From the NCBI GenBank assembly GCA_009691045.1, contig SHWC01000012.1, positions 1 through 44,953 of the forward strand: a stretch of 44,953 nucleotides of DNA, written 5' to 3'. Positions 6,045-12,072 of the stretch are shown one piece after another. The stretch comes from Alphaproteobacteria bacterium (GTDB lineage Bacteria > Pseudomonadota > Alphaproteobacteria > UBA828). The translations under genes and the position numbers were made by a program. Below the pieces are notes generated by a model. That model was given only the letters and a program-made list of their open reading frames with translations. It did not search any database and had not been told where the DNA came from. Position 1 is the first letter of the stretch. The number at the start of each line of letters is the position of its first letter.

Positions 6045-6330
6045 ATGACCCCAGCACCGGCTCATGATTTCGATCTTCTCTGCATCGGCAGCGGCCCCGC
6101 CGGGCAGCGCGCGGCCGTGCAAGCCGCGAAGCTGAGAAAGCGCGTCGCGATCATCGAATCCGAGATCGATGTCGGCGGCGTTTGCTTGCGCACCGGCACC
6201 ATCCCCTCCAAGACCTTTCGCGAGGTGGTGCTCTCTTTCGGCAAATCGCGCGAGACCCTGACCAATGGCCTCAATGGCAATGGCCATCTCTCCCCCGAGG
6301 CGATGGCGCGAATCCCGAGCGGCGGCAGCG
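6045..6330 (+). pseudogene. sthA: Truncated soluble pyridine nucleotide transhydrogenase (N-terminal remnant)
   Basis: From the ATG at 6045 the frame encodes the FAD-binding start of a SthA/lipoamide-dehydrogenase-like flavoprotein: [42 protein letters not shown]. The second redox cysteine of lipoamide dehydrogenases is Thr here (GTIPSK), which is the SthA pattern. A full protein would be about 465 residues, but family resemblance stops after roughly residue 85-95; the frame then runs through unrelated sequence to a stop at 6470. The NAD-binding and dimer domains are nowhere in the window, so the gene is a remnant. The exact breakpoint (6300-6345) is an estimate. Confidence 0.8.
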
Positions 6331-9070: not shown

Positions 9071-9194
9071 TGGGTTACTCGCTATGTGACGTGTGAACAT
9101 TCGCGTAACCAATACTCATTCGAGGGTGAATAATTCGTAAAGAATTGGCCATTCGCCCCCCTTGAAACGGGTGATATTCGGACGAATAATCGGT

Positions 9195-9563
9195 GACACC
9201 TCGGGGGGAGCCCTTTTCGGGCTGAGAGGCCGGTCTACCGGCGACCCTTAGCAGGCTGCCGAAGAATTCCCGGGCGTCGCGTTGCGAACGCCGGGCAGGC
9301 GAATGGCAGGAGCGGCGGCGAAAGCGATGCCGGAGCATCGGTGAGCCGTCGCGACGAACCGGGCGCCTGCCCGCCGTCGCAACCCAAGTGGGACGCGGGA
9401 GAAATAGTCGTGACCAGCGTCGCTCAGGGCTTACAATGCAATCGGCACCGCCGCGCCCCTCGCTCCTAGCCCACGCCAATTTCTCCCAGCGTCGCGACAT
9501 GCGGGAATTCTTCGACAGCCTGCTGAAACCTGAACCGGGTTATGCCGGCGTAGGAAACGAGGG
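9195..9563 (+). promoter_or_regulatory. TPP (thiamine pyrophosphate) riboswitch, interrupted by an insertion
   Basis: The 5' half (9199-9249) has P1 CCTCG, a G-run for P2, the P3 hairpin AGCCC/GGGCT, the pyrimidine-sensing CTGAGA (9222-9227), an extra hairpin GCCGG/CCGGC, and GACCCTT closing P2. The 3' half (9525-9562) has ACCTGAACCGGGTTATGCC then GGCGTAGG, with P5 CCGG/CCGG and the P1 partner CGAGG at 9558-9562. Between the halves, exactly in the P2-P4 joining region, lies a MITE-like element of about 275 bases. P1 ends two bases before the TTG start of the transporter ATPase gene, so ligand binding could block ribosome access. Whether the split aptamer still binds TPP is unknown. Confidence 0.9.
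9250..9524. mobile_element. MITE-like element with long terminal inverted repeats inside the TPP riboswitch
   Basis: The ends are inverted repeats: positions 9250-9272 match the reverse complement of 9502-9524 at 22 of 23 bases (both begin AGCAGGCTG and continue CGAAGAATTCCCG). After a three-base internal mismatch, 9276-9281 (GTCGCG) pairs with 9493-9498. The core of roughly 210 bases is GC-rich and shows no transposase. The size, repeats and lack of coding capacity fit a non-autonomous element mobilised by a transposase elsewhere. No clear target duplication is visible. Another reading is a naturally expanded riboswitch joining region. Confidence 0.75.
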
Positions 9564-10349
9564 TTGACGCTCATTAACCATAAGCCGCCCCAACGCGGTC
9601 TCGCGCCGCCGGATATTGATATTGCCCAGGCCCGGCTAAGCTATGCCGGACGCGATCTCTTTGCCGATTTCTCGCTCCATATCGCGGCTGGGCAATGGAC
9701 CTGCTTGCTCGGCCCGAGCGGCGTTGGCAAATCGACCCTCTTGCGGCTGATCGCGGGGCTCGAGACGCCTGCCCCGCCCGGGCGAGTCGCGGCGAGCGAT
9801 GGCCAACCGCTCCAGGGCCGCATCGCCTATATGGCGCAGCAGGACTTGTTGCTGCCCTGGCTGAGCGCGCTCGGCAATGTCAGCCTCGGCGCGCGCCTGC
9901 GCGGCGAAGCAGTCGACGATGCCTTGGCGCATCGCCTGCTCGATCAAGTCGGCCTTGGCAGGCGGACCGCCGATCGCCCCGCGACACTTTCCGGCGGCAT
10001 GCGCCAACGCGTCGCGCTCGCGCGCACGCTGGCCGAAGATCGTCCGATCGTTTTGATGGATGAACCCTTCTCCGCGCTCGATGCGGTGACACGCCTCCGT
10101 TTGCAAGACCTCGCGGTTGAAACATTGCGCGGGCGAACCATCGTGCTGGTGACCCACGATCCGCTCGAAGCGATCAGGCTCGGCCAAAAGGTCTTGGTCA
10201 TGGCGGGGCGCCCCGCGCGCCTGATCGAGGCCGCGCTGCCCGACTCCGCCATCCCACGCCGCGCCGATGATCAGGCCGTGCTCGATGCGGAGGCACGATT
10301 GTTTCGCACCCTTCTCGCGAGCGATGCCGAAGGGCTCGACGCGCCATGA
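9564..10349 (+). CDS. thiZ: Thiamine-precursor ABC transporter, ATP-binding protein
   Basis: A 261-residue ABC ATPase with Walker A GPSGVGKST (about residues 50-58), a Q-loop YMAQQDLLLPW, signature LSGGMRQR (about 141-148), Walker B VLMDEP (about 162) and a switch His in VTHD. It starts at a TTG at 9564, two bases after riboswitch P1, with AGGAA at 9552-9556 as the possible ribosome-binding site. With the permease and binding protein downstream it forms a ThiXYZ-type importer for the pyrimidine moiety of thiamine. It is coupled to the permease gene by an ATGA overlap. The substrate assignment rests on the TPP riboswitch and the ThiY-like partner. Confidence 0.88.
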   Translation: MTLINHKPPQRGLAPPDIDIAQARLSYAGRDLFADFSLHIAAGQWTCLLGPSGVGKSTLLRLIAGLETPAPPGRVAASDGQPLQGRIAYMAQQDLLLPWLSALGNVSLGARLRGEAVDDALAHRLLDQVGLGRRTADRPATLSGGMRQRVALARTLAEDRPIVLMDEPFSALDAVTRLRLQDLAVETLRGRTIVLVTHDPLEAIRLGQKVLVMAGRPARLIEAALPDSAIPRRADDQAVLDAEARLFRTLLASDAEGLDAP

Positions 10350-11107
10350 AGTGGCTCCGACTTCCTCTCGTGTTGATTGGGTTCGTCCTATTGTGGGAAG
10401 CGATCGCGGCGTTGGGGAACCTACCGCCCTATATCTTGCCGGGCCCGCTCCGCGTTGTGCTCGCAATCGGCGCGCATTGGGAACGCTTGGTTGGCCATGC
10501 CAGCGTCACCATGCTTGAAATGGCGCTCGGTCTCTTGCTCGGCACCGCTTTCGGCGCCGCGTGCGCGCTCACCCTTGCCTATTTCCGTCCGGCGCGGCTT
10601 TGGCTTCTGCCCGTGCTGGTCGCCTCGCAAGCCGTACCGGTCTTCGCGCTCGCGCCCATCCTCGTGCTTTGGTTCGGCTATGGCATCGCCTCGAAGGTCG
10701 CGATGGCCGCGCTGATTATTTTCTTTCCCGTCGCGACCGCGTTCTTCGATGGGCTGAGGCGCACCGAAGCCGGTTGGCTCGATCTCGCACACACCATGGG
10801 CGCGCGGCGCTGGCGCGTGCTGTGGCACGTCCGCGCACCTGCGGCCTTGCCCGCGCTCGCCTCAGGGCTCCGTGTCGCGGCCGCGGTCGCGCCGATCGGT
10901 GCCGTGGTCGGCGAATGGGTTGGCTCAAGCGCCGGTCTCGGCTATTTTATGCTGCAAGCCAATGGCCGCATGCAGATCGATCTGATGTTCGCGGCGCTCC
11001 TCGTGCTCGCGATTATCGGCCTTGCACTCTATTTCGCGCTCGATGCCGGGCTCAGGCGCGCGCTACCCTGGGTCGCCGACAGCGCCCCCGTCAAACAAGG
11101 AGACTAG
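10346..11107 (+). CDS. thiX: Thiamine-precursor ABC transporter, permease
   Basis: A 253-residue inner-membrane permease of the nitrate/sulfonate/taurine/thiamine-precursor type with about six hydrophobic segments. The cytoplasmic coupling loop is visible as DLAHTMGARRWRVLWHVRAP. It starts within the stop of the ATPase gene and its stop lies three bases before the binding-protein start, so the three genes form one transcription unit under the TPP riboswitch. Substrate inferred from context: 4-amino-5-hydroxymethyl-2-methylpyrimidine or its formylamino precursor. Confidence 0.87.
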   Translation: MKWLRLPLVLIGFVLLWEAIAALGNLPPYILPGPLRVVLAIGAHWERLVGHASVTMLEMALGLLLGTAFGAACALTLAYFRPARLWLLPVLVASQAVPVFALAPILVLWFGYGIASKVAMAALIIFFPVATAFFDGLRRTEAGWLDLAHTMGARRWRVLWHVRAPAALPALASGLRVAAAVAPIGAVVGEWVGSSAGLGYFMLQANGRMQIDLMFAALLVLAIIGLALYFALDAGLRRALPWVADSAPVKQGD

Positions 11108-11109
11108 CC

Positions 11110-12072
11110 ATGTTGATCCGTCGCGCGGTTTTGATTCTGGTGGCGTTCGGTCTCAGCCTCTTCGCCGCGCCGCTCGCGACCTTTGCTGCGGACACCCCAG
11201 CCAAACTCACATTGGTGCTCGATTGGTTCGTCAATCCTGACCATGCGCCGATCCTGGTCGCGCAAGAGAATGGCTATTTCAAAGAGGCTGGGCTTGAGGT
11301 CGAGATCATCGCGCCGGCCGATCCGAACGACCCGCCTAAATTGGTCGCCGCCGGCAAGGCCGATCTCGCGGTCACCTATCAACCGCAACTTCACATTCAA
11401 GTGGCGGCGGGCCTGCCGCTCATTCGCGTCGGCACGCTGGTCGCGACACCGCTCAACACCTTGCTCGCGCTCGCCGATGGCCCGGTCAAATCGATCGCCG
11501 ATCTCAAAGGCCGGCGCGTCGGCTATTCGGTCGGCGGTTTCGAGGATGCGTTGCTCGGCACGATGCTGGAGCGCCACGGCCTCACACTGAAAGACGTGAC
11601 ATTGATCAACATCAATTTCTCACTGTCGCCGGCTCTGCTCTCGGGCCAGGTCGATGCCGTGATTGGCGCGTTTCGCAATTTCGAACTCAATCAGCTTGAT
11701 ATAGAGGGCCGCAAAGGCCGTGCCTTCTATGTCGAGGAAGAAGGCGTGCCGGCCTATGACGAATTGATCTTCGTCGCCAAGCGCGACGGCTTTGATCCCA
11801 AAACCATTCGCCGCTTTCTGGATGCCATCGAGCGCGGCGTTCAATATCTGGTCAATCACCCAGACGAAGCCTATGACCGCGTCGCGGCTTCAAACCCCGA
11901 TCTGAAAAACGAGCTCAACAAACGCGCCTGGCGCGACACCCTGCCCCGCTTCGCGCTGACCCCGGCGGCATTCGACCGCGCGCGTTATGAACGCTTCGCG
12001 GCGTTCCTCGTCACGCGTGGATTGATTAAGGAGGCGCTACCAGCCGAGGCCTACGCCATTGAGCTGCGGTGA
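11110..12072 (+). CDS. thiY: Thiamine-precursor ABC transporter, substrate-binding protein (NMT1/THI5-like)
   Basis: A 320-residue periplasmic binding protein with a signal peptide (MLIRRAVLILVAFGLSLFA..., cleaved after TFA). The NMT1/THI5-type start of the mature chain, LTLVLDWFVNPDHAPILVA, matches ThiY pyrimidine-binding proteins. The ATG at 11110 follows AAGGAGA at 11098-11103. The frame is open far upstream, but that part overlaps the permease gene in another frame. Its 3' end overlaps the convergent nhaA gene by 22 bases. Confidence 0.9.
   Translation: MLIRRAVLILVAFGLSLFAAPLATFAADTPAKLTLVLDWFVNPDHAPILVAQENGYFKEAGLEVEIIAPADPNDPPKLVAAGKADLAVTYQPQLHIQVAAGLPLIRVGTLVATPLNTLLALADGPVKSIADLKGRRVGYSVGGFEDALLGTMLERHGLTLKDVTLININFSLSPALLSGQVDAVIGAFRNFELNQLDIEGRKGRAFYVEEEGVPAYDELIFVAKRDGFDPKTIRRFLDAIERGVQYLVNHPDEAYDRVAASNPDLKNELNKRAWRDTLPRFALTPAAFDRARYERFAAFLVTRGLIKEALPAEAYAIELR

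Follow-up and report, generated by a model that had tools for sequence, protein, structure and literature searches.

The window, by which we mean the whole 44,953-nucleotide stretch of DNA that was analysed, is one contig of a 1.81 Mb assembly (67% complete, 52 contigs) from an uncultured alphaproteobacterium. It contains a thiZXY-like operon with a match to the NMT1/THI5 family (PF09084, 5e-77), and the leader of this operon holds both halves of a TPP riboswitch aptamer, separated by the 275 bases (9250-9524) that the initial annotation had described. The features of the locus are given below in window coordinates.

9162-9190, + strand: promoter-like TTGAAA-N17-AATAAT, ending a few bases 5′ of the aptamer
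9195-9249, + strand: 5′ half of the TPP aptamer (P1 5′ strand, P2, P3, P3a, sensor, k-turn loop)
9205-9207/9245-9247, 9209-9223 and 9229-9242, + strand: P2, P3 and P3a, respectively
9248-9249, + strand: k-turn loop UU
9249-9250, + strand: left-hand target duplication, 2 bases, TA (assigned from the TA that flanks other copies on either side)
9251-9523, + strand: inserted MITE-like element, 273 bp
9251-9281, + strand: left terminal inverted repeat (terminal stem)
9281-9383, + strand: arm A, 103 nt, with the covarying hairpin motif at 9298-9366
9392-9493, - strand: arm B, 102 nt, with an inverted copy of the motif at 9407-9477
9493-9523, + strand: right terminal inverted repeat (terminal stem)
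9524-9525, + strand: right-hand target duplication, 2 bases, TG
9525-9565, + strand: 3′ half of the TPP aptamer (G1b-A-A-A2b of the k-junction, P4/P5, P1 3′ strand; k-junction bases named after PMC4005666)
9529-9554 and 9558-9565, + strand: P4/P5 and the P1 3′ strand, the latter overlapping the start codon
9564-10349, + strand: thiZ-like ABC ATPase, intact, with a TTG start
10346-11104, + strand: thiX-like permease, intact
11110-12072, + strand: thiY-like NMT1/THI5 substrate-binding protein, intact

Elsewhere in the window (6045-6320), a Pyr_redox_2 pyridine nucleotide-disulphide oxidoreductase retains only its N-terminal ~60 residues before the frame exits the family, and this gene looks truncated or decayed.

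The aptamer halves and the insertion site

The TPP motifs named in the initial annotation were all recovered in order, with CTGAGA (9222-9227) and GACCCTT (9243-9249) followed by ACCTGAACCGGG and GGCGTAGG. The annotation had also raised the prospect that the 3′ half might fail a TPP covariance model; instead, cmscan matched it to RF00059 (9505-9574, 35.1 bits, E 2.9e-5) along with the 5′ half (9194-9276, 23.2 bits, E 0.024). Each half falls short of the RF00059 gathering score of 54.3 bits because the RNA is split by the insert, and at Rfam gathering scores the window yields two tRNAs and nothing else. The position upstream of a thiamine operon is that of a TPP riboswitch, and the sister operons bear RF00059 as well. 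Conservation of the aptamer is high: 47 of the 48 columns that are invariant in 18 relatives are retained, the sole changed column adjoins the insertion point, and identity to the sister genome G001 at 437 fourfold sites is only 68%. The retained columns fit continued function, and they are not proof of it because the insertion is undatable; it may be recent, so the intact halves need not reflect selection.

Comparison with relatives established that the extra segment is an insertion. Uninterrupted RF00059 matches over cut-off were found, at one place each, in 18 of 20 family relatives, always on the contig and strand of a thiX homologue and no more than about 1 kb upstream of it. Therefore, the segment was inserted into the riboswitch, and the objection anticipated in the initial annotation, that close relatives might all carry an old conserved long arm, is ruled out. 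A second survey covered 80 thiXYZ loci of named genomes, some of which are also among the family relatives; an uninterrupted riboswitch was recognized by motif in 31 and by cmscan in 11 of 20 others, and the element was present in none of the 80. Most relatives read CGACCCCTTGAACCTGA at the site, where the window has CGACCCTTA-element-TGAAACCTGA. With one copy of the duplication taken out, the sequence becomes CGACCCTTGAAACCTGA, which has the length of the relatives' site, the inferred empty site being the window sequence minus 9250-9524. Other family members have CGACCCCGAAACCTGA, so J2/4 naturally varies by one base here. In uninterrupted thiXYZ leaders, J2/4 comprises 4-5 nt after ACCC.

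The usual variable regions of the TPP riboswitch are P3 and P3a. The initial annotation placed the insertion in J2/4, and alignment to the published k-junction description refines this position to the k-turn loop strand of J2/4. In the TPP k-junction, G1b comes immediately after the loop strand, and one or two additional bases then lead to A2b and the 3b pair; the nucleotides of the loop are important both for folding and for the binding of TPP (PMC4005666). The element lies between loop UU and G1b, beside L3, a position that faces solvent in k-turns (PMC4005666). The most conserved junction bases, A1n and A2b, are both present.

The inserted element and its family

The ends of the insert, which the initial annotation had called complementary, form 32-nt inverted repeats with 88% complementarity. 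The element is predicted to fold as a Y with a terminal stem of ~31 bp, arm A, a short linker hairpin and arm B. It has terminal inverted repeats, a length of 273 bp and no transposase gene; related copies are dispersed, and the corresponding riboswitch site is empty in the 18 relatives. Most copies have TA on both sides, and the copy in the window and the one at locus L003 have TA/TG, which means that one base of a duplication copy differs. These sequence features identify the insert as a palindromic miniature inverted-repeat transposable element (MITE) of the TA-duplication class. A known RNA family within the insert was considered and rejected, as there was no Rfam match at gathering; matches to microRNA families on its minus strand were far below cut-offs and reflect the long stems.

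The best BLAST match to the element in relatives is 78% over 64 bp, and all matches are partial. These partial matches led to elements of 187-297 bp (mostly 257-297 bp) with a common architecture of terminal stems of 29-36 nt per side, two arms, and almost always TA on both flanks; one copy, L010, is missing an arm. Terminal repeats show no relation from one subfamily to the next (GAGCATGTTCCGACCAAG, CCAAGGAGCGGTRATAATGAC, GCCCGCATTTCTCACC, GAGCCTRTYTKGGAATTC and others). A second copy with the exact terminal repeat was found neither in 21 family genomes (allowing up to 3 mismatches) nor in 385 class genomes (1 mismatch), and the same genomes yielded no parent insertion sequence with this repeat; the single terminal-repeat sites that did turn up were without the hairpin motif. 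A plasmid collection held no match for the window element or for the L013 copy.

What the arms do have in common is one hairpin motif, which arm B carries in inverted orientation. In an alignment of 15 arms, compensatory changes were seen in 12 of 17 pairs, and a covariance model built from this alignment, R1, scores arm A at 71.3 bits and arm B at 49.6 bits, both being training sequences. R1 matches were found in 16 of 21 family genomes, with up to 35 per genome, and 200 phylum genomes from outside the class gave only three matches, each of them single and weak. For 45 matches from non-training loci, which were aligned to R1 and are thereby biased towards its structure, 96.9% of cells are paired and the covariation score is 0.683; shuffles score 0.179, and sliding the partners gives no more than 0.119. 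RNAalifold, used unaided, gave both-side changes in 20 of 23 pairs. Stretches of AGG, CG and ACG beside internal loops are nearly invariant, and an AGGAG/CGACG loop alternates with AGGCG/CAACG in what looks like a coupled change at a non-canonical pair. The base pairing of the motif could be maintained at the level of RNA or of extruded DNA. None of the Rfam families matched the motif in the window element or in other copies, and a literature search with its letters returned no paper. Because the motif occurs in 19 of 190 sampled Alphaproteobacteria genomes, from 18 families, the element family, which covaries strongly and is absent from Rfam, is a lead in its own right that reaches further than this locus and merits its own study. 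Loci L166-L203 and others hold class-wide palindromic elements with the covarying motif in two inverted copies. Going further is speculative: the paired inverted motif might be a new selected module of RNA or extruded DNA, common to MITEs with unrelated ends throughout the Alphaproteobacteria, and a fold that is self-contained and the same in either orientation might be what allows the element to reside in a TPP riboswitch that still works. We regard this proposal as doubtful at present.

Copies of the family are mostly found at gene 3′ ends, so a copy in a 5′ leader and inside an aptamer is unusual for it. By a simple ORF call, 11 of 24 classifiable element loci lie between convergent genes. 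At five loci (L010, L168, L180, L185 and L187), element edges adjoin gene 3′ ends, and the stop codon TAG at such edges is apparently formed by the TA duplication and the first G of the element. At L014, a copy on the minus strand at about 1632 starts at the stop codon of an apparent rpmJ (ribosomal protein L36). A search near 20 element copies for other split RNAs gave no Rfam match at E 0.05.

Predicted folding and the fate of the riboswitch

Thermodynamic folding supports the separate-arm model put forward in the initial annotation: the predicted fold forms the aptamer helices, and the insert makes one arm. A 380-nt stretch folds at -208.3 kcal/mol, against a shuffle mean of -163.9, or 7.4 sd below the shuffles. 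With the element in place, 31 aptamer pairs form with a mean probability of 0.89, and shuffled inserts gave a mean of 0.50 +/- 0.16, with 0 of 60 as high as the true element. Folding the leader without 9250-9524, with the flanks joined, gave only 0.55, because CGACCCTTG pairs alternatively with ACGAGGGTT. This pairing (9242-9249 with 9557-9565) is an alternative to P1 that is not seen in relatives, and the element disrupts it. When insertion was scanned over 95 positions of the window aptamer, only those after bases 53-55 reached 0.9 (0.90 after base 53, 0.92 after 54 and 0.91 after 55, the true site); in the G001 aptamer, J2/4 (55-60) was again among the best, at 0.77-0.81. Nine family members placed at the site in either orientation all gave 0.90-0.91, so the insulation is general to closed elements here and is no adaptation of the window copy. 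Nearest-neighbour folding leaves tertiary structure out, and its minimum-energy structure pairs G1b with the loop U, which extends the stem; this pair would need to open for the k-junction to form. In partial transcripts of about 80-300 nt, the 5′ half is predicted to mispair with the element until the 3′ repeat has been made. Such co-transcriptional mispairing is a risk, though it need not matter if the switch acts on translation.

We lean towards the explanation that the MITE in J2/4 is tolerated, with the aptamer halves meeting again and TPP control of thiZXY probably kept, perhaps weakened or slowed. The palindromic element would have transposed into J2/4 at the boundary of the k-turn loop and G1b with a 2-base duplication. 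The native transcript should cross the element because a conserved promoter lies 5′ of the aptamer; its counterpart in G001 is TTGAAT-17-AATAAT at the equal position, and weaker counterparts are found there in four other relatives (G007, G009, G010 and G016). In this mRNA, the terminal repeats would pair into the ~31-bp stem bearing arms A and B, forming one closed side arm and leaving P1, P2, P3, P3a, P4, P5 and the nucleotides of the TPP pocket in place. The predicted fold, the alignment and the invariant columns agree on the presence of the P1-P5 helices and the conserved pocket nucleotides. Closure of P1 on TPP binding would then mask the region of the TTG start (9564). Since the P1 3′ strand overlaps this codon, direct start masking is the likely mode judging from the sequence; P1 also adjoins the start codon in other family members, and a transcription terminator was looked for in the leader and not found. 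The idea of tolerance is supported by structure prediction and conservation; TPP binding, control of translation and the absence of damage by RNase III are inferred.

The last of these points has a competing explanation. RNase III might cut the terminal stem or arms, leaving an aptamer of two pieces held together by P1 and tertiary contacts in the manner of fragmented rRNA, or the cut might set mRNA stability. Long stems are RNase III targets, the element offers ~31 bp plus long arms, and processing of transcripts with Correia elements is known (PMC10969869), but the stems here have mismatches and the arms have internal loops; we consider cleavage possible yet not probable, and it would be compatible with either a kept or a broken switch. 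That the element broke the riboswitch seems unlikely to us. On this account, the k-junction would be disrupted sterically or kinetically, thiZXY would be without TPP control and either constitutive or permanently low, and the intact halves would reflect recency. The importance of the J2/4 loop nucleotides for folding and TPP binding (PMC4005666), the transient misfolding of partial transcripts, and the single occurrence of such an insertion, with 80 other thiXYZ loci lacking the element, all speak for it. Against it, the predicted fold retains the aptamer better than with every shuffled insert, and the aptamer columns show no decay, the one difference adjoining the insertion point.

Two further explanations concern the origin of the transcript and of the sequence itself. 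Arm B contains a promoter-like GTGACC-N16-TACAAT (9410-9437) directed at thiZ, which might start a shorter mRNA without the 5′ half and bypass TPP control. This site is one 9/12 match where shuffles of the region average 0.1 promoter-like sites, but it was not seen conserved in other copies when arm B sequences were read by eye, and the native upstream promoter matches better and is conserved in the sister genome, so we judge the bypass improbable. An assembly chimera of the metagenome bin would be conceivable for a 67%-complete assembly of 52 contigs, but it is very unlikely given that no close repeat elsewhere in the assembly could have misled the assembler (the best is 64 bp at 78%) and that the boundaries fall exactly at the element ends with a 2-base duplication.

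Relation to known systems

If the switch works, the locus is a natural case of a ligand-sensing RNA that still functions although a transposon occupies its ligand-binding junction, and TPP riboswitches can accept insertions at the k-turn loop of J2/4. The locus is a natural test of whether a transposon can be tolerated by an RNA switch. It also suggests a reason for the tight folding of MITEs, as a self-closed element would be least harmful to the RNA it enters. Searches of an open-access library turned up no description of a MITE within the aptamer of a riboswitch. The window RNA resembles the TPP riboswitch family RF00059 in its core helices, conserved nucleotides, place before thiZXY and P1 beside the start codon, and differs from it in the 275 bases carried in J2/4.

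The element itself is comparable to the ERIC, Correia/NEMIS and RUP MITEs, which are likewise small, non-coding and palindromic, with terminal inverted repeats, TA duplication, stable RNA structure and a dispersal mostly in intergenic DNA. Unlike these, the window family is longer (mostly 257-297 bp), different in sequence and alphaproteobacterial, and it takes a Y shape in which a single covarying hairpin motif occurs twice, as inverted copies. Correia elements in transcripts are cleaved by RNase III, and a MITE review speculates on riboswitch-like roles (PMC10969869). The CIR repeats of Caulobacter and Brucella, from Chen and Shapiro 2003 as described in PMC2229807, are also alphaproteobacterial and have two arms, a linker and TA at the termini. 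That description sets them apart by a length of about 110 bp, the lack of terminal inverted repeats and a conserved GANTC in a loop; identity with CIR was rejected for the window element, which is 273 bp with terminal repeats and in which no GANTC was found on reading.

Other systems are comparable in how an RNA accommodates an insert. In Rickettsia, palindromic elements are found within tmRNA and RNase P RNA (Ogata 2002, cited in PMC2229807) and are thus palindromic repeats within conserved structured RNAs, but these are RNA genes rather than a ligand-sensing aptamer and the element is unrelated. 5S rRNA accommodates helical expansion segments (PMC7812874), and its core similarly stays folded around a helical insert, although the host is a ribosomal RNA and mobility is not shown there. 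In the pneumococcal trp leader, two T-boxes flank a BOX element, and regulation is apparently preserved (PMC3049150). This case has in common with the window a mobile repeat in a riboswitch leader, and it differs in that the BOX element stands between two complete riboswitches, whereas the window element lies inside one aptamer.
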